64,000 nt of DNA, taken from Thomasclavelia saccharogumia DSM 17460 (GTDB lineage: Bacteria; Bacillota_I; Bacilli_A; Erysipelotrichales; Coprobacillaceae). Position 1 is the stretch's first letter. Each line of letters starts with the position of its first letter. This document shows, piece after piece, positions 11,767 to 59,601 of the stretch. The position numbers and the translations under genes were made by a program. The stretch is from NCBI RefSeq assembly GCF_000686665.1, contig NZ_JMLH01000006.1, positions 1-64,000 on the forward strand. Direction: 5' to 3'. Under the pieces are notes generated by a model that was not told where the DNA came from, made no database searches, and saw only the letters and a list, made by a program, of their open reading frames with translations.

Positions 11767-12606
11767 ATGATAAAAAATATAATCGGTGGTATTGCCATAG
11801 GTATTGCCAATGTAATCCCAGGTGTTAGTGGGGGAACCATGATGGTTATTTTAGGTATTTTTAATCCTATGATGGATGCTATTAGTGGCATTTTTAAACG
11901 TGAAAATCCTAATCGAAAAAGAGATATTATTTTTATTTTTCAAGTATTGATTGGTGCTGCTGTTGGAATTATTGGTTTTGCTAAAATTTTAGAAGTACTA
12001 TTTAATTATTATCCAACTCAGACGATCTATTGGTTTATTGGGCTGATTGCATTTAGTATCCCTTTATTTTTAAAAGGTGAGATGAAAGGGCAAAAGTTGG
12101 CTGTGATTCCATTTATTTGCGGTCTAGCAATTATTTTTGCTTTAGAATATTTTAATCCTGGTGAAGGTAAAACAGTTGTAAATCCTGATTTTCCAGCGTT
12201 GAGTGCAGGTCTATTTATTAAGATGGTAATAATTGGGGCTATTTCTGGAGCAACGATGATCATGCCAGGTGTTAGTGGTAGTATGGTATTGTTGATTTTA
12301 GGAGAGTATTATTTATTTAAATCTTATCTAGCAAATGTTACTAGTTTTAGTTTAGATGTGATTCTGCCACTTGGTTTTATGGCAATCGGAATTGCTGTAG
12401 GTATTGTTATTAGTGCTAAATTATGTTCTTATTTTACTAGAACACATAAAGCAGGATTTTTAAGTTTGATACTTGGCTTGATCGTTGCTTCATCGTTAGT
12501 ATTAATTCCTTTTGATGTTAGTTATGATCTTAATTTAATCATTACATCATTAGCAGCTGTTATTTTTGGTGGAATAATTGTTTTAGGTTTATCTAAAATT
12601 CAATAA
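11767..12606 (+). CDS. DUF368 membrane protein, predicted undecaprenyl-phosphate translocase (PopT type)
   Basis: A 279-residue, almost wholly hydrophobic protein with about eight membrane segments. The family hallmark appears twice as an internal duplication: IANVIPGVSGGTMMVILG near residue 13 and ATMIMPGVSGSMVLLILGEYYL near residue 162. DUF368 proteins (PopT) have been shown to return undecaprenyl phosphate across the membrane for reuse in wall synthesis, so this is the likely role. It has its own promoter and ribosome site (AACAAGGAG) and a terminator. The upstream tandem repeat could affect expression. Confidence 0.88.
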   Translation: MIKNIIGGIAIGIANVIPGVSGGTMMVILGIFNPMMDAISGIFKRENPNRKRDIIFIFQVLIGAAVGIIGFAKILEVLFNYYPTQTIYWFIGLIAFSIPLFLKGEMKGQKLAVIPFICGLAIIFALEYFNPGEGKTVVNPDFPALSAGLFIKMVIIGAISGATMIMPGVSGSMVLLILGEYYLFKSYLANVTSFSLDVILPLGFMAIGIAVGIVISAKLCSYFTRTHKAGFLSLILGLIVASSLVLIPFDVSYDLNLIITSLAAVIFGGIIVLGLSKIQ

Positions 12607-51164: not shown

Positions 51165-51189
51165 ATCATAACGAAAGTGGGTGATGAAA

Positions 51190-53001
51190 ATGACTATTGA
51201 TCAAAGTAAAATAAGAAATTTTTCAATTATCGCGCATATCGATCATGGTAAAAGCACCCTGGCAGATCGTATTCTTCAAATAACTGGCGCTGTTGCTGAT
51301 AGAGAAATGAAAGCCCAGCTGCTTGATAGTATGGATCTTGAACGTGAAAGAGGAATAACAATAAAGTTAAATGCAGTCCAATTAAATTATACTGCAAAAA
51401 ATGGTGAAACATATTTATTACACTTGATAGATACTCCAGGTCATGTGGATTTTACATATGAAGTGTCACGATCATTAGCAGCATGCGAAGGTGCTATATT
51501 AGTTATTGATGCAGTACAAGGTGTTGAAGCTCAAACTTTAGCTAATGTATATCTTGCTTTGGATAATAATCTAGAGATACTTCCAGTTATAAACAAAATT
51601 GATTTGCCTAGTGCTGATCCTCAAAGAGTAATTAGGGAAGTTGAGGACGTAATCGGTTTACCAGCTGATCATGCGCCATTAATTTCTGCAAAAACAGGAT
51701 TAAATATTGATGAAGTTCTTGAAAAGGTTGTTCAAGAATTTCCAGCTCCATCAGGGAGTATCAATAATCCAACCCAGGCATTAATTTTTGATTCTTATTA
51801 TGATAGTTATCGTGGAGTAATTGTTTTTGTTAGAATCAAAGAGGGAAAAATCAAATTAGGTGACACAGTTAAGTTTTTAGCAACTAACGCTACCTATGAA
51901 GTTACAGAATTAGGGGTTAGAACCCCAAGAGAAATAAAAAAAGAAGAGCTAGTTGTTGGAGAGGTTGGCTGGTTTTGTGCATCAATTAAATCTATTCAGG
52001 ATATCCATGTTGGCGATACTGTTACAACACTAGAAAATGAATCAGATCAACAATTACCAGGTTATCGACAATTGAATCCAATGGTTTATTGCGGCCTTTA
52101 CCCAATTGATAATGCTCGTTATAAAGATTTGCGTGAAGCTTTAGAGAAAATGCGATTAAGTGATTCTTCATTAATGTTTGAACCTGAAACTTCACAAGCA
52201 CTTGGCTTTGGTTTTAGATGTGGATTTTTGGGATTGTTACATATGGATGTAATTCAAGAAAGGTTAGAAAGAGAGTTTGATCTTGATTTAATAGCTACAG
52301 CGCCATCAGTTATTTATCATTGTTATTTAACTGATCGTAGTAAAGTAGTAGTGGATAATCCTGCGATGATGCCTAGTCCACAAGTTATTGATCATATTGA
52401 AGAACCATATGTAAAAGCTTCGATTATGTCACCAAGTGAATTTGTTGGTGTGATTATGGAACTTTGTCAAAATAAACGTGGTGAATATATTGATATTGAA
52501 TATATTGATGATACGCGTCGAAATATTATTTATGAAATACCATTATCAGAAATAGTTTATGATTTTTTTGATAAACTTAAATCTAGTACTAAAGGTTATG
52601 CTTCATTGGATTATGAATTGATTGGTTATCGTAGTAGTAAACTGCAAAAAATGGATATTTTATTAAATGGTGAAGTTGTAGATGCCCTTTCAACGATCGT
52701 ACATAAAGATTTTGCTTATAGTCGAGGAAAGGTTATTTGTGAAAAACTTAAAGAAATCATTCCTAAGCAAATGTTCGAAGTACCAATTCAGGCAGCTTTG
52801 CAAGGAAAAATCATCGCGAGAACTACGATCAAAGCAATGCGTAAAAACGTTCTTGCTAAATGTTATGGTGGTGATATTACCCGTAAAAAGAAATTATTAG
52901 AAAAGCAAAAAGAGGGTAAAAAAAGAATGAAAGCGGTTGGAAATGTAGAAATTCCACAAGAAGCTTTCATGGCAATATTGTCAGTCGATGATGATAAGTA
53001 G
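51190..53001 (+). CDS. lepA: Elongation factor 4 (LepA)
   Basis: Ribosomal back-translocase-type GTPase. The 603-residue product has the G domain ([28 protein letters not shown]), domain II, EF-G-like domains ([26 protein letters not shown]), and the LepA-specific C-terminal domain ([26 protein letters not shown]). ATG 51190 is chosen, 7 nt after GGGTG; earlier in-frame GTG/ATG codons overlap the ribosome site. Confidence 0.97.
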
Positions 53002-53140: not shown

Positions 53141-55234
53141 ATGGCATTTAATTTTAAAAACAAAATTCATAAAGTTCGTTTTTATGGAGCCTTAGAACAA
53201 GAACGAGAGCAAAAAAATAAACAGGATAATATAGTCAGCAGACGCTTGATCATTTTACTTTGTTTCATTGTTGCAATTACATCAGTTATGGCGGTTAGAC
53301 TAGCCTTGATCCAGTTTAGAGATGGTGATGAATTAGCTGTCAAATTAGAAAAATACGGTACAGCTACATATTCGACCGATGCCCCAAGAGGTGAGATCGT
53401 CGACCGTAACTACGTTAAACTGGTACAAAATACTAATGTTATCTGTGCAACTTATTATGCACCTAAAAAGATCAAGGATGAACAGTTAAAAACATCGGCT
53501 AAATTTTTAGCGAAAACGATAAATTTAGATACCTCTTCTATTACGACCCGTAATAAAAAAGATTATTTCATTATTGCCTATCCAGATCTAGCAGATGAAT
53601 TAGTCAGTGATGAAGAAAAAGCTAAACTTAAAGAACAAAATAACTACGACAGTGCCTTATTAAATCTCCAGATTGAACGGATCACTGATGAGATGCTTGA
53701 AAAATATATGGATGAAGAGACATTAAAATATACACACTTTTATTATTTGATGAAGAGCTGTTCAAGCGGATCATCAGTATTAGCAGAAGGGATAAGTGAA
53801 GAAGAAGCAAGTATTATTGGAGAAAATACAGATATTTTGCCAGGGATCGATGTAACGACGGACTGGTCACGGCAGTATGTCTATGATCGAGAGTTCAGTC
53901 AGGTACTAGGCAGAGTAACAACGAAAAAACAGGGTCTGCCTTCAGAAATGAAAAATGAGCTGTTAGCATTAGGATATCAGAATGATTCTAGAGTCGGGGT
54001 ATCGGGATTAGAAGCCCAGTATGAAGATATCTTGAGAGGAAGCGACAGCAGCTATACATTAAATTATGACAGTGATGGAAATCCGATTATTACAAGTACC
54101 AAATCCGGGACAGCAGGATCGAATATTCGTTTGACGATCGATTGGGAGCTGCAGCAGTTTGCTGATTCGATAATAGAAGAAGAACTGGTCAAGATGAACA
54201 GTCAAAACAAATTCTTTAATAAGATGTTTTTTACCCTGATGGATCCCGACACGGGCGAGATCATTGTGATGTCTGGAAAGATGATCGATAAAGAGACCGG
54301 AGAAGTAACGGATTATGCGGCAGGGAACTATTTAGATGCCAATTTGATTGGATCGACGATCAAAGGGGGAACACTTTATACAGCATTTAAAGAAGGAGTG
54401 ATAACACCAGGGACGACCTTTATGGATGAACCAATCAAGATAAAAGGAACGAAAGAGAAGAAATCACATCGAAATTTAGGACTGATCAATGAAGTAGATG
54501 CGCTAGCATACTCATCAAATGTATATATGTTTAGAATCGCGATGCTGTTAGGAGGAGCAAATTACGTATATGATGGACCGCTAAAGATCAATGATGAAGC
54601 TTTTGAAACCTTAAGAAGAGATCTGGGAGAATTAGGTTTAGGGGTAAAGACCGGAATCGATATTCCTAACGAAGCGTTTGGATACAGAGGAAGCAAACGA
54701 ACTGGAGGATATTTATTAGATGCTTCGATCGGACAATATGATACATATACAAATATTCAGTTGGCCCAGTATGCCTGCACACTAGCAAACGGGGGAAAGA
54801 GAATCAAACCGCACTTATTTTTAGATTCATATGTAACCGATGCTGATGGACTGGCCAATGCCAACTATACAGCGAAAACAGAGGTATTGGATGATGTTTC
54901 CAGCCAAACGACAGCCTTTGGTCAAATCAAGCAGGGGATGAGAGCGTGTGTAACAAGAAGCAGCGGGACATGCAATGCCTACTGGAGCAGTAAACCATAT
55001 GTGACATATGCCAAAACAGGGACAGCCGAAGATTATACGGGAACAGGAGAGACCGATTATCCAAACCATTTACAGATCGGATATATTCAGGCAGATGAAA
55101 ACTCTGAACCAATCGTAGCCTTTGCCTGTATTGCGATACGACAGACGACAGCATCGAATGGAGGCAGCAGTTCGGCACCGTTGATTTCACAACAAATAAT
55201 CGATAAATATGTCGAAAAGTATGGTTTAAATTAA
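53141..55234 (+). CDS. Class B penicillin-binding protein (transpeptidase)
   Basis: Cross-links peptidoglycan. The 697-residue product has a cytosolic start, one membrane anchor (about 34-54), a dimerisation/pedestal domain (APRGEIVDRN), and a transpeptidase domain with the three penicillin-binding motifs: STIK (Ser405), SSN (YSSNVYMF), and KTGT. The SxxK surroundings are unusual (LIGSTIKGGTL instead of PGSTFKP). Base use changes within the gene: the second half is 43-52 percent GC in hand-counted blocks against 25-33 percent nearby. Whether it serves division or elongation is unclear. Confidence 0.9.
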   Translation: MAFNFKNKIHKVRFYGALEQEREQKNKQDNIVSRRLIILLCFIVAITSVMAVRLALIQFRDGDELAVKLEKYGTATYSTDAPRGEIVDRNYVKLVQNTNVICATYYAPKKIKDEQLKTSAKFLAKTINLDTSSITTRNKKDYFIIAYPDLADELVSDEEKAKLKEQNNYDSALLNLQIERITDEMLEKYMDEETLKYTHFYYLMKSCSSGSSVLAEGISEEEASIIGENTDILPGIDVTTDWSRQYVYDREFSQVLGRVTTKKQGLPSEMKNELLALGYQNDSRVGVSGLEAQYEDILRGSDSSYTLNYDSDGNPIITSTKSGTAGSNIRLTIDWELQQFADSIIEEELVKMNSQNKFFNKMFFTLMDPDTGEIIVMSGKMIDKETGEVTDYAAGNYLDANLIGSTIKGGTLYTAFKEGVITPGTTFMDEPIKIKGTKEKKSHRNLGLINEVDALAYSSNVYMFRIAMLLGGANYVYDGPLKINDEAFETLRRDLGELGLGVKTGIDIPNEAFGYRGSKRTGGYLLDASIGQYDTYTNIQLAQYACTLANGGKRIKPHLFLDSYVTDADGLANANYTAKTEVLDDVSSQTTAFGQIKQGMRACVTRSSGTCNAYWSSKPYVTYAKTGTAEDYTGTGETDYPNHLQIGYIQADENSEPIVAFACIAIRQTTASNGGSSSAPLISQQIIDKYVEKYGLN

Positions 55235-55305: not shown

Positions 55306-55455
55306 ATGAGAGAAAATATCATTCTTAGATGTACTGAATGCGGTGAAGAAAATTACATTAATACAAAAAATAAAAGAAATCATCCTGATAGAATGGAAAT
55401 AAATAAATATTGTCCAAGATGTAATAAGAAAACTGTACATAAAGAAAAGAAATAA
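55306..55455 (+). CDS. rpmG: 50S ribosomal protein L33
   Basis: A 49-residue L33: [37 protein letters not shown], and a basic tail. It has both zinc CxxC pairs (C+ form), so it is the zinc-binding paralogue rather than a C- version. ATG follows TGGAGGTG. A short terminator overlaps the stop codon. Confidence 0.93.
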
Positions 55456-55491: not shown

Positions 55492-56100
55492 ATGAAAGTA
55501 AAAACATTATTATTAGGAAATATGCAAACTAATTGTTATGTTGTTAATGATGATACAAAACATTGTTTTATTGTAGATCCTGGTGCAAATGGTAAAAAGA
55601 TTATTAATTACTTAAATGAAAATGAATTAGTCTTAGATGCAATATTATTAACTCATGGTCATTTTGATCATATAGGAGCAGTTGATTATTTATATGAACA
55701 TTATCATTGTCCTATTTATATCCATCATGATGATATCTTGTTATTACATGATGCCAAAGCAAATTTATCAGTTTTTGAAAAACCATTTGTAGTTAAAGCA
55801 CCAGTAATTAAAAGTGATGAAAAAATGAAGATAGGTAATTTTGAAATAAGCTGGTTACATCTACCAGGACATTGTCCAGGATCTTCAATGATTTACTTAC
55901 CTAAAGAAAATGTGATTTTTGCTGGTGATGTATTATTTAAGGGATCGATTGGTCGTTTTGATTTTCCAAATTCTTCTAAACATGATACTTGTGAATCGTT
56001 AGCAAAGATCAAAGAGTATGATTTTGATGCTGTAGTATATCCTGGACATGGTCCTGCAACAACATTAAAAGAAGAACAAATGCATAATCCTTATTTTTAA
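55492..56100 (+). CDS. MBL-fold metallo-hydrolase (glyoxalase II-like)
   Basis: A 202-residue metallo-beta-lactamase-fold hydrolase of the YqgX type: MQTNCYVV start, zinc motif THGHFDHIGA, LPGHCPGS, the bridging-Asp region FAGDVLFKGSIGR, and YPGHGPAT. Homologues hydrolyse S-lactoylglutathione-like thioesters (hydroxyacyl hydrolases); the true substrate here is unknown. It follows TGGAGGTGGG. Confidence 0.88.
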   Translation: MKVKTLLLGNMQTNCYVVNDDTKHCFIVDPGANGKKIINYLNENELVLDAILLTHGHFDHIGAVDYLYEHYHCPIYIHHDDILLLHDAKANLSVFEKPFVVKAPVIKSDEKMKIGNFEISWLHLPGHCPGSSMIYLPKENVIFAGDVLFKGSIGRFDFPNSSKHDTCESLAKIKEYDFDAVVYPGHGPATTLKEEQMHNPYF

Positions 56101-56878: not shown

Positions 56879-57250
56879 TTATTGATATTCAAATGCAGAA
56901 ATTATTAAAGTTTCAATGTTGATTTCTAAGTTAAAACTATACTCATATTTATCATTTCTAACAGTTGTTACAATATAATAATAGCTTCCTAAATCATCTA
57001 CTGTGTACTCAATGATATATTCACCAACTGTGATAATATCACTAATTAAAATATCGTTAGCAATCATTTCTTTATAATATCTTAATATACTAAGCTCAAC
57101 TAAACGCTCATTATTAATTTTTTTAACTCTTTCTATTGCTTTACTGTTTTCAATTATGCTAGTAAAAAACACTCCGATATTTAAGCTCAAAACCATAAAA
57201 ATAATTAATACTAATTGTAAAATTGTACCTTTATGGAAGTATTTCATCAT
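56879..57250 (-). CDS. comGG: ComGG-like minor pseudopilin
   Basis: A 123-residue protein, last in the operon. A short basic start (MMKYFHKG) leads into one hydrophobic helix (about 10-30), with no GFTLIE motif, as in ComGG of Bacillus; the rest is a beta-rich pilin-like domain (EYIIEYTVDDLGSYYYIVTTV). Assignment rests on position and topology rather than sequence. It overlaps comGF by 20 nt. Confidence 0.6.
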   Translation of the reverse strand: MMKYFHKGTILQLVLIIFMVLSLNIGVFFTSIIENSKAIERVKKINNERLVELSILRYYKEMIANDILISDIITVGEYIIEYTVDDLGSYYYIVTTVRNDKYEYSFNLEINIETLIISAFEYQ

Positions 57251-57695
57251 TCGTTTCCTCAAAATTATGAGTATGTTCATAATTTGTGGCAATTAGATAA
57301 TAAAAATCATCTTTACCATTATTTAAATGCATATAAATATTTTCATCTCTATTAAAAAAATCTAAGCTTTCAACATCTCTGATTATAATATCAAAACCAG
57401 GTTCTTTGACTACTCTTTTTTTATGCAGAGATATTGTAAATAACTGATTATTACTATCTTTAAAAGATAACTGATCACCAACAATAATATCTTTAGATGT
57501 ATATAAAATCTTAGTTAATTGTTTTGCCCCGATAGCATAAAAGCTAGTATTTACCTTAAGTTTATCTTTATAAGATATTGTTTTAATAAGCGGTACACTG
57601 TTTAAAACAATCAGCAGACAAATTGAAAGTGAAAATAAAACTTCAATTAATGTAAAACCTCTTCTATTGACTGATCCAATGCTGTTGTTTGCCAT
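57231..57695 (-). CDS. comGF: ComGF-like prepilin
   Basis: A 154-residue type IV prepilin-like protein: leader MANNSIGSVNRRG, then FTLIEVLFSLSICLLIV, the site cut by the prepilin peptidase and the N-methylated helix. The C-terminal domain (LDFFNRDENIYMHLNNGKDDFYYLI) matches the order of ComGF. It overlaps the genes on both sides. Confidence 0.7.
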   Translation of the reverse strand: MANNSIGSVNRRGFTLIEVLFSLSICLLIVLNSVPLIKTISYKDKLKVNTSFYAIGAKQLTKILYTSKDIIVGDQLSFKDSNNQLFTISLHKKRVVKEPGFDIIIRDVESLDFFNRDENIYMHLNNGKDDFYYLIATNYEHTHNFEETNDEILP

Positions 57696-57868
57696 AATTG
57701 TAACTCCTTAACATTTTGTTGTTCTAAATAATTTTGATAATCATCATTATTGATTTGGAAATGTCGCATACCAGTACGATAACAACTAAAAATTACTACG
57801 ATAATAGTAATAAAAATACTAAATGCCAACAAACTTTCAATCAAAGTCATTCCTTTATTCTTTGACAT
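57647..57868 (-). CDS. comGE: ComGE-like prepilin
   Basis: A 73-residue prepilin: MSKNKGMTLIESLLAFSIFITIIVVIF, with the peptidase site before Met (GMTLIE). The start at 57868 is chosen to give the normal short basic leader. It is unusually short after the helix. It lies between comGD and comGF, overlapping both. Confidence 0.65.
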   Translation of the reverse strand: MSKNKGMTLIESLLAFSIFITIIVVIFSCYRTGMRHFQINNDDYQNYLEQQNVKELQLWQTTALDQSIEEVLH

Positions 57869-58262
57869 AAAACGTACCACTGCCAACATTAAAAATAATA
57901 CTTCTACAATCATTTTGATTGCAGATAGTTAAGTGATTTCCTTTATTAATATTTCCATTTTCATTAAAATAAAGTTCAAAGCTATTTTGAAAATAATAAT
58001 TACGATCTAATTCAATTTTTTGTTCACCCTGATAATCATAACAGATTTGATTATTATCAATTAAAATATCGATTCTTTCATGATTTAATAAAGCTTGAGT
58101 TTTAGCTTCCTGTAATAAAGCAATAATTAGTTTACACTGCTGATCAATAGATATGCAGGGTGGGGTAGTAATTGCAAAATGCAGACTAAAAACGCTTAGA
58201 ATAATAATGATACTAATTGTAAAGACTACTTCAATCAATGTAAAACCATGTTTATCTTGCAT
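57855..58262 (-). CDS. comGD: ComGD-like prepilin
   Basis: A 135-residue prepilin: MQDKHGFTLIEVVFTISIIIILSVF, then a pseudopilin domain ending in a Cys-containing stretch (TICNQNDCRSIIFNVGSGTFYV). ATG 58262 overlaps the end of comGC; ATG 58274 is an alternative. Confidence 0.72.
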   Translation of the reverse strand: MQDKHGFTLIEVVFTISIIIILSVFSLHFAITTPPCISIDQQCKLIIALLQEAKTQALLNHERIDILIDNNQICYDYQGEQKIELDRNYYFQNSFELYFNENGNINKGNHLTICNQNDCRSIIFNVGSGTFYVKE

Positions 58263-58554
58263 AAGCTTGACCATCACTAATAGAAATCGTTAAACCGCTA
58301 GGACAGGTTACCTGTTTTTCTGTTAAATAAGGGTGATCACCTGATGTTAGATCAGAAATACTTGCTGGTAGATGACCATTTTCAATTTCATAAAGAACGA
58401 TTTGAGAATTGACAACTTCAATTTGGGCATCACAGCTTTTTTCTTTAACAACTCTGTTTTTGCTTGTAACATTTGGTATAACTAATAATAAAATAACTAA
58501 AATAACTGAAATACAAAAAATCATTTCAATTAAAGTAAATCCTTTTTGTTTCAT
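58252..58554 (-). CDS. comGC: ComGC, major pseudopilin
   Basis: A 100-residue prepilin forming the main competence pseudopilus: MKQKGFTLIEMIFCISVILVILLLVIPNV, with the peptidase site G-F and Glu5. The body has two cysteines (SCDAQIE, VTCPSG) that can form the disulphide known in ComGC. ATG 58554 follows GGAGGGAAAAG; the longer frame lacks a leader-like start. Confidence 0.9.
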   Translation of the reverse strand: MKQKGFTLIEMIFCISVILVILLLVIPNVTSKNRVVKEKSCDAQIEVVNSQIVLYEIENGHLPASISDLTSGDHPYLTEKQVTCPSGLTISISDGQAYAR

Positions 58555-58599
58555 CTTTTCCCTCCGTTTTGTGATAAATATCATGAAATATTCAAATTA

Positions 58600-59601
58600 C
58601 TATAAATTACCAATTATTGACATCATTGGAATAACAATTGAAACATAAACTAAAATAACGAATCCGGCTGTAAAACAGTAAATTAATGGTACGACAAGCT
58701 TGATTATTTTCATGACTTTAAAATGTAAAGTGTCAATAGAAATCTTTAAATAATTATCAAGCGATTTATGAGCTTGATTATCATGAATCAATAATTTAAA
58801 ACTAGCAATAAAAAGAGGCTCAAAATAGTTAAACTGAGAAATGATATGTTCTAAAGATTCACCCTTTAAAATCTTTAGATATATTTCATATACCAACATT
58901 TTAATATCACTATCATCAATTTGTTGATAAAGCATTACAACGATATCGGTAGTATCATAGCCATTGATCAATAGTTCATTATAATATAGAGCAAATTTAA
59001 TTGAATAATATTTTTGAATCATTTTTTGAATGAACCAAACATGAGTCACTAAAAAATCTATTAATTGATAATACTGTTTTTTTATTGCATAAACAGTTAT
59101 TAAACAGGTACAGCTAAAACATATTAAGATCATTAAAATAAGAAAGGGAATGATTTTAAATAGGCTAAACATCATTTTAGTAATAAAACCAGATTCAATG
59201 GCAAATTCGACAAAAAGCTGCATTATTGAGGGTAGTAAGGCATAAATGATAAACAATGAAAACATCATTAAAAAGATAATCAATAAAATAGGGTAAGTTA
59301 ATTCTTTTTTTAATTTATTAAATGTTTCGTCTCTTGTTTTACAAATATTTAAACTTTGAACAATTGCTTTAGATAGATTATTTTTAATTCTAAAAAATTT
59401 AAAATATTCAATGAACGTTCGATTAAAATCACCTTTGATTATTGCTTCATCTAATGTCAAACCATTATTTAATTTCTTTTTTAGATCTTCAATTCGTTCA
59501 TTACTATATATAAAAGAACATATCTCTAAAATATCTTGAATCAAATATCCCTGTTGTAAAAAATAAGCAATGCTTTCTAAAAAACGATATTCTTCATTCA
59601 T
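58600..59601 (-). CDS. comGB: ComGB, pseudopilus assembly membrane protein
   Basis: A 333-residue type II secretion F/PilC-family inner-membrane platform. It has three predicted membrane segments (about 110-130, 150-175, 300-325) and two duplicated cytosolic helical domains (NGLTLDEAIIKG; KGESLEHIISQFNYFEPLF). It overlaps comGA by 8 nt, as expected for the operon. Confidence 0.9.
   Translation of the reverse strand: MNEEYRFLESIAYFLQQGYLIQDILEICSFIYSNERIEDLKKKLNNGLTLDEAIIKGDFNRTFIEYFKFFRIKNNLSKAIVQSLNICKTRDETFNKLKKELTYPILLIIFLMMFSLFIIYALLPSIMQLFVEFAIESGFITKMMFSLFKIIPFLILMILICFSCTCLITVYAIKKQYYQLIDFLVTHVWFIQKMIQKYYSIKFALYYNELLINGYDTTDIVVMLYQQIDDSDIKMLVYEIYLKILKGESLEHIISQFNYFEPLFIASFKLLIHDNQAHKSLDNYLKISIDTLHFKVMKIIKLVVPLIYCFTAGFVILVYVSIVIPMMSIIGNL

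Follow-up and report, generated by a model that had tools for sequence, protein, structure and literature searches.

A PBP2b-type gene pair evolving in concert in Thomasclavelia saccharogumia and its unusual third-position composition

The penicillin-binding protein gene at the lepA locus

We analyzed a window of 64,000 nucleotides (the whole stretch of DNA under study, G000:C6:1-64000) from Thomasclavelia saccharogumia DSM 17460, whose genome, called G000 here, is a 3.14 Mb draft with 30% GC. All genome-wide composition figures refer to a 1.67 Mb sample of this genome, taken as stretches. The following features are relevant for the analysis.

51181..53001, plus strand: lepA, upstream neighbour, of normal composition (GC3 0.18), marking the ancestral locus
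53141..55234, plus strand: gene of a PBP2b-type class B penicillin-binding protein (PBP) of 697 aa, copy a, at the lepA locus
53141..53695, plus strand: 5' segment of this gene, codons 1-185, with pyrimidine-leaning fourfold sites (purine fraction 0.39) and GC3 raised already (change-point analysis, 50-codon bins)
53696..55231, plus strand: 3' segment, codons 186-697, with a fourfold purine fraction of 0.77, T strongly depleted and a codon usage close to that of A/G-rich mobile genes
54353..54364, plus strand: SxxK motif, S405-T-I-K
54512..54520, plus strand: SxN motif, S458-S-N
55013..55021, plus strand: KTG motif, K625-T-G
55306..55455, plus strand: ORF resembling ribosomal protein L33 (rpmG), downstream neighbour, read from the sequence
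55492..56100, plus strand: MBL-fold hydrolase gene, downstream neighbour of the lepA-locus copy

The predicted product is a PBP2b-type class B PBP with a dimerisation domain, a transpeptidase domain and the motifs SxxK, SxN and KTG; the NCBIfam cut-offs are not reached, the best match, strep_PBP2B, scoring under its cut-off. In Pfam the PBP_dimer domain covers residues 79-316 and the Transpeptidase domain residues 362-683, and along almost the entire protein there is resemblance to Streptococcus pneumoniae PBP2b (PDB 2waf) and to PBP3 (PDB 8c5b, 3vsk). The three motifs are identical among the congeners. A previous reading of the window, made from the sequence only, had called the surroundings of the SxxK motif atypical, but GSTIKGG is found in every complete orthologue of the genus that was examined (both G000 copies described below, G001, G002, G004, G005, G006 and G008). 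In-frame TAA codons flagged in the PBPs of genus g17 were set aside, the TAA in the one case checked (G024) being the normal stop near the C-terminus.

In most congeners the DNA of the rpmG-like place also adjoins the PBP gene, which is a conservation of place only. Further downstream, on the minus strand, positions 56879-59601 hold a run of ORFs that resemble prepilins and carry GFTLIE signatures, together with the ORF of a membrane protein like GspF/ComGB. They apparently form a competence pseudopilus operon of the comG type, and natural competence would be relevant to recombination in G000.

A second copy at the argC locus

A search of the same genome revealed a second full PBP gene, copy b, at G000:C22:35830-37920 (L041:9831-11924), which follows an ABC transporter permease gene and precedes argCJB. 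The two copies are 97% identical in protein and 92% identical in DNA, with 167 differences in a gap-free alignment of 2091 nt. This identity is confined to the stretch from the ATG to the stop codon, and the flanks are unrelated. Both ORFs are full with intact motifs, and dN is 0.016 compared with a dS of 0.41 (dN/dS about 0.04); both copies are therefore constrained and apparently functional. A promoter-like site lies upstream of each copy, such sites being no commoner in the region than by chance. The argC leader (L041:11925-12332) has a sequence resembling a T-box, GAGTGGTAACGCGG or close to it, with a terminator at 12279-12298; this feature is conserved in all seven argC upstream regions read from the genus.

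In two further species, G003 and G007, both loci are present with the same neighbours as in G000. Four contigs in each of them end inside the PBP gene, the eight copy ends lying at codons 40-43 and 558-598, and the middles of these copies are missing from the assemblies; presumably the near-identical middles collapsed during short-read assembly. In G003 the distance from the argC-locus PBP copy to argC is about 2 kb (L042, 7919-9937), compared with about 0.4 kb in G000, owing to an insertion.

No second PBP copy was found in the six other congeners, where the ABC permease gene directly adjoins argC. In G001 the argC intergenic region contains a 39-nt match of 82% to the PBP 3' end, at the expected place and in the expected orientation just before the argC leader. 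Its score of 43 compares with a best score of 33 in 1000 shuffles, and nothing similar was found at the argC locus of the other five single-copy congeners. In the control-gene tree G001 adjoins the two-copy clade, with only 61% support for leaving G006 out. The duplication predates the split of the three two-copy species; going by the short match, it most likely also predates G001, which would later have lost its argC copy.

Concerted evolution of the two copies

Using the 420 nt available from all copies, we could reject pure locus orthology as the tree topology (AU p=2.6e-6). Of the three trees compared, the best one joins both copies of G003, and partial locus signal is kept in G000 and G007. 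The two G000 copies can be told apart at diagnostic sites. At each of the seven successive ones in the 5' part (nt 20-116) the lepA-locus copy of G007 carries the arg-type allele, and its 3' end is mosaic, with small a-type patches at 1819-1854. The two copies therefore have the properties of a concerted pair: paralogues are closer within species, similarity is limited to a tract, flanks are unrelated, the duplication is older than the species splits and tracts are mosaic. These data show that the two copies evolve in concert, and from the sequences we infer that the ORF of one copy has been overwritten by the other through gene conversion. The sequence-only reading had proposed recombination with foreign DNA; recombination is indeed central, but its demonstrable partner is the second copy in the same genome, and all close relatives of either half of the protein lie within the genus. 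Between G007 and G000 (L049, L046) dS is 0.01-0.02 at the argC locus, 0.11 for lepA and 0.26 for the MBL gene, a contrast which suggests that the lepA region recombined between strains.

GC content and third positions

The GC step by which the gene had attracted attention is real. The original counts of 60-bp blocks are right within 2 points (43.3% at 54001, 51.7% at 54241, 48.3% at 54961, 23.3% at 52501 and 33.3% at 53221), and along a sliding profile GC climbs from 33% to 47% before dropping to 26% directly past the stop codon. In the congeners the GC content of first and second codon positions (GC1+2) climbs from about 0.38 to 0.47 along the PBP gene, and similarly in other family members; since this gradient is found in every relative, it is set by protein composition. 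The GC3 of copy a is 0.35, compared with a genome median of 0.183 (sd 0.056, 1.67 Mb sample). Among the ORFs of at least 300 aa in this sample a GC3 of at least 0.32 is reached only by ICE- or phage-like genes, a few transposase-, Rpn- or capsule-like genes and both PBP copies. One block with a GC3 of 0.41-0.50 in this 30% GC genome (L092, G000:C10, 2155-19157) resembles an integrative conjugative element, judging by eye from its large membrane and VirB4-like ORFs.

For the whole PBP gene GC3 is 0.11-0.22 in the six single-copy congeners, as against 0.35 and 0.32 for the two G000 copies and 0.29-0.33 for the 3' parts of the G003 and G007 copies. Thus the GC1+2 part of the step is common to all relatives, whereas the rise in GC3 goes beyond the range of the single-copy congeners. 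G010, a distant single-copy relative with a PBP GC3 of 0.36, had been considered as a counterexample and was ruled out on account of its own genome GC3 of 0.33. Neither lepA, the ABC permease gene, argC nor the MBL gene has a GC3 rise comparable to that of the PBP gene; at either locus the composition anomaly coincides with the ORF and does not extend into the flanks.

Relative to the single-copy congeners GC3 is up 1.4 to 2.4-fold in all 50-codon bins except the short last one. With GC3 about doubled along the whole ORF, there is therefore no GC3 patch confined to the transpeptidase half. The shift in codon usage noticed inside the gene does have a real boundary, but it is situated near codon 185-234 (about 53695-53840), far ahead of the part encoding the transpeptidase domain. 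What changes sharply at third positions there is the balance of purines and pyrimidines, not GC3. The preferred codons of the PBP gene differ from those of native genes in the codon table.

A purine switch at fourfold sites

In copy a codon 185 marks a change in the purine fraction at fourfold sites, with 0.39 before and 0.77 after it; the corresponding values of copy b are 0.35 and 0.76. These are the two strongest purine steps among 212 ORFs of at least 500 aa in the sampled half of the genome. The PBP gene of G001 has a similar step, from 0.26 to 0.71 near codon 229, with a slightly raised GC3. It is absent from the PBP genes of G006, G005, G002, G004, G008 and twelve more distant relatives. 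After codon ~175-234 the codon usage scores +0.16/+0.14 per codon on a log-likelihood ratio (LLR) scale of resemblance to the A/G-rich mobile genes of G000, as compared with -0.16 +/- 0.05 for native genes. A change point in codon usage is significant in both G000 copies and in G001, and there is none in G006, G005, G002 and G008.

The step is chiefly due to T>A changes. With single-copy outgroups, 36 of 65 outgroup-T fourfold sites after codon 190 changed to A, as opposed to 1 of 43 in the direction A>T. The 21 of these 36 sites that are common to G001 probably date from before the G001 split. Polarised against G001 and G006, W>W swaps amount to 16/262 sites compared with 30/477 in the controls (p=1); as this rate equals that of the controls, most swaps predate the G001 split. 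The A/T-swap clock at fourfold sites also gives control-gene values for the PBP gene, which deserves little weight since such sites are near saturation between species and the T>A shift is present in both sister lineages.

Origin of the unusual composition

On balance we favour as the best explanation, and consider somewhat probable, a concerted PBP pair in which GC-biased gene conversion has doubled GC3. Two full-length copies, one at the ancestral lepA-rpmG-MBL locus and one at the ABC permease-argCJB locus, would swap their ORF sequence by conversion, while the flanks and the promoter-like upstream sequence would remain specific to each copy. Repeated and biased recombination between a and b would have fixed third-position changes towards G/C and so doubled GC3 along the ORF, with the flanks spared; the raised GC3 together with the protein-driven GC1+2 gradient would produce the GC step first seen. 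Polarised with G001 and G006 as outgroups, synonymous W>S changes amount to 71/262 (27%) compared with 63/477 (13%) in the ABC-transporter and arg genes flanking copy b, which were used as controls (p=6e-6). These counts fit new W>S changes as well as donor bases that were inherited and that G001 has since lost. An association of GC3 with recombination has been described generally in bacteria (PMC4450053), and whether bacterial gene conversion is GC-biased is a matter of dispute (PMC8153448).

Genome-wide the expectation that duplicated genes have a higher GC3 gives a mixed picture, which is confounded by mobility: multi-copy Rpn-like and AAA-type genes are raised, but another 95%-identical gene pair, the tandem pair L127, has a normal GC3 of 0.19 and 0.15. 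This pair may be young. The family that looks to be of Rpn type (recombination-promoting nuclease), assigned by eye, comprises L140:15837-16811, L150:19289-19693, L151:3-596 and L094:9-431, which are 80-86% alike with a GC3 of 0.29-0.35. We also observed a dispersed, 92.7% identical pair of 542-548 aa (L115:3476-5122 and L129:14896-16524; MIEMKKAIPLGIMDYEKLIKDDYYAVDKT...), which has few T-ending fourfold codons and a mildly increased GC3.

A GC bias alone predicts neither the strong T>A excess nor the switch at codon 185-234. It should leave A/T swaps unaffected and should have no strand preference, whereas T>A and A>T differ greatly (36/65 vs 1/43); the purine switch near codon 185-234 is left unexplained by recombination-linked GC bias. 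It is conceivable, if unlikely, that long-running conversion itself left a strand-mirrored footprint, pyrimidine-rich on one side of codon 185-234 and purine-rich on the other, with doubled GC3. This would imply a preferred start of recombination inside the gene and strand-asymmetric mismatch repair, and the footprint would fade where one copy is lost. For the tuf genes of Salmonella a uniform initiation of conversion has been reported (PMC5485169).

The main rival to a recombination bias is an old import, which we regard as a serious possibility and yet doubt. An unsampled congener or a mobile carrier with A/G-ending codons would have supplied the common ancestor of G001, G003, G000 and G007 with the 500 codons of the 3' part or with the complete argC-locus copy, conversion would have spread the sequence to both loci, and it would since have been ameliorating, fastest in the single-copy G001. 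The resemblance to A/G-rich mobile genes past codon ~175-234 and the change point restricted to G000a, G000b and G001 speak for such an import, as does the fourfold purine step with its identical species distribution. The protein lends no support to it. The same trees are acceptable for the N- and C-terminal halves in the AU test, so that the conflict to be expected from foreign DNA is lacking, and both halves keep G000 with G001 and G006. Amino-acid divergence of the left part relative to the right part varies little between species pairs, and no donor beyond the G006 split is needed. Outside the genus the best match to the C-terminal 494 residues has 63% aa identity; a donor match of at least 60% was not found in plasmids and no match at all in viral_contigs, nor was a foreign donor found in the genomes of the family and class or in a scan of 84,980 species by six exact 8-residue patterns, which misses more diverged donors. 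Any donor would have had to be a close unsampled congener, whose own composition would need explanation. Furthermore, the single-copy congeners other than G001 are free of such a composition, and the 5' segment has a raised GC3 too, without the purine signature.

Selection on codons or mRNA structure in the PBP2b of this clade, independent of recombination, would fit the strand-specific nature of the shift (A/G up, T down within one gene), as is expected for an effect on the transcript. We consider it quite unlikely: the preferred codons are unlike those of native genes, the single-copy congeners except G001 show no trace of the shift in spite of 71-82% identical proteins, and the shift is found where the second copy or a remnant of it is present. 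A foreign mosaic of recent date in the transpeptidase domain, as known from penicillin-resistant pneumococci and from Neisseria, is very improbable indeed. Raw GC does peak over the transpeptidase half, but the composition boundary lies far upstream of the domain and is common to two loci and at least two species, and there is no donor, the trees are compatible and the active-site motifs are unchanged. Nothing points to beta-lactam selection.

Comparison with known systems

Mosaic PBPs are known from PBP2b and PBP2x of Streptococcus pneumoniae and from PenA of Neisseria. The gene pair shares with them that a class B PBP has a patchy sequence due to gene conversion or recombination; it differs in that there is no foreign donor, the boundary is outside the transpeptidase domain, the motifs are unchanged and there is no link to resistance. 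Unlike the genes behind the PBP3 and S. pneumoniae PBP2b structures, the gene is present in two copies in this clade. Caution is advisable, as a GC patch in a drug-target gene can mimic a foreign mosaic when the partner is a second copy in the same genome; such copies go unnoticed in short-read assemblies, which break within them.

Whether recombination raises bacterial GC content is disputed (PMC4450053 for, PMC8153448 against), and the genus offers a natural comparison, with the same core gene having a converting partner in three species, a lost partner in one and no partner found in five, on similar genomic backgrounds. As in the GC-biased gene conversion described before (PMC4450053), GC3 is higher in the recombining gene and third positions are affected. 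Here, on the other hand, recombination takes place between paralogues in one genome, the contrast is between species in which this gene does or does not have a second copy, and there is an extra strand-asymmetric T>A component.

Concerted evolution of duplicated bacterial genes is well described for tuf of Salmonella (PMC5485169) and for 26 long-lasting prokaryotic cases (PMC6053082), the main text of the latter containing neither 'penicillin' nor 'cell wall'. The PBP pair agrees with these cases in that a core gene is present as two full-length copies at separate places, that conversion restricted to the gene keeps them alike within a genome and that the flanks are unrelated. In contrast to them the gene encodes a cell-wall transpeptidase, the dS of the paralogues reaches up to 0.41 in one species and the composition of the converted ORF is strongly shifted.
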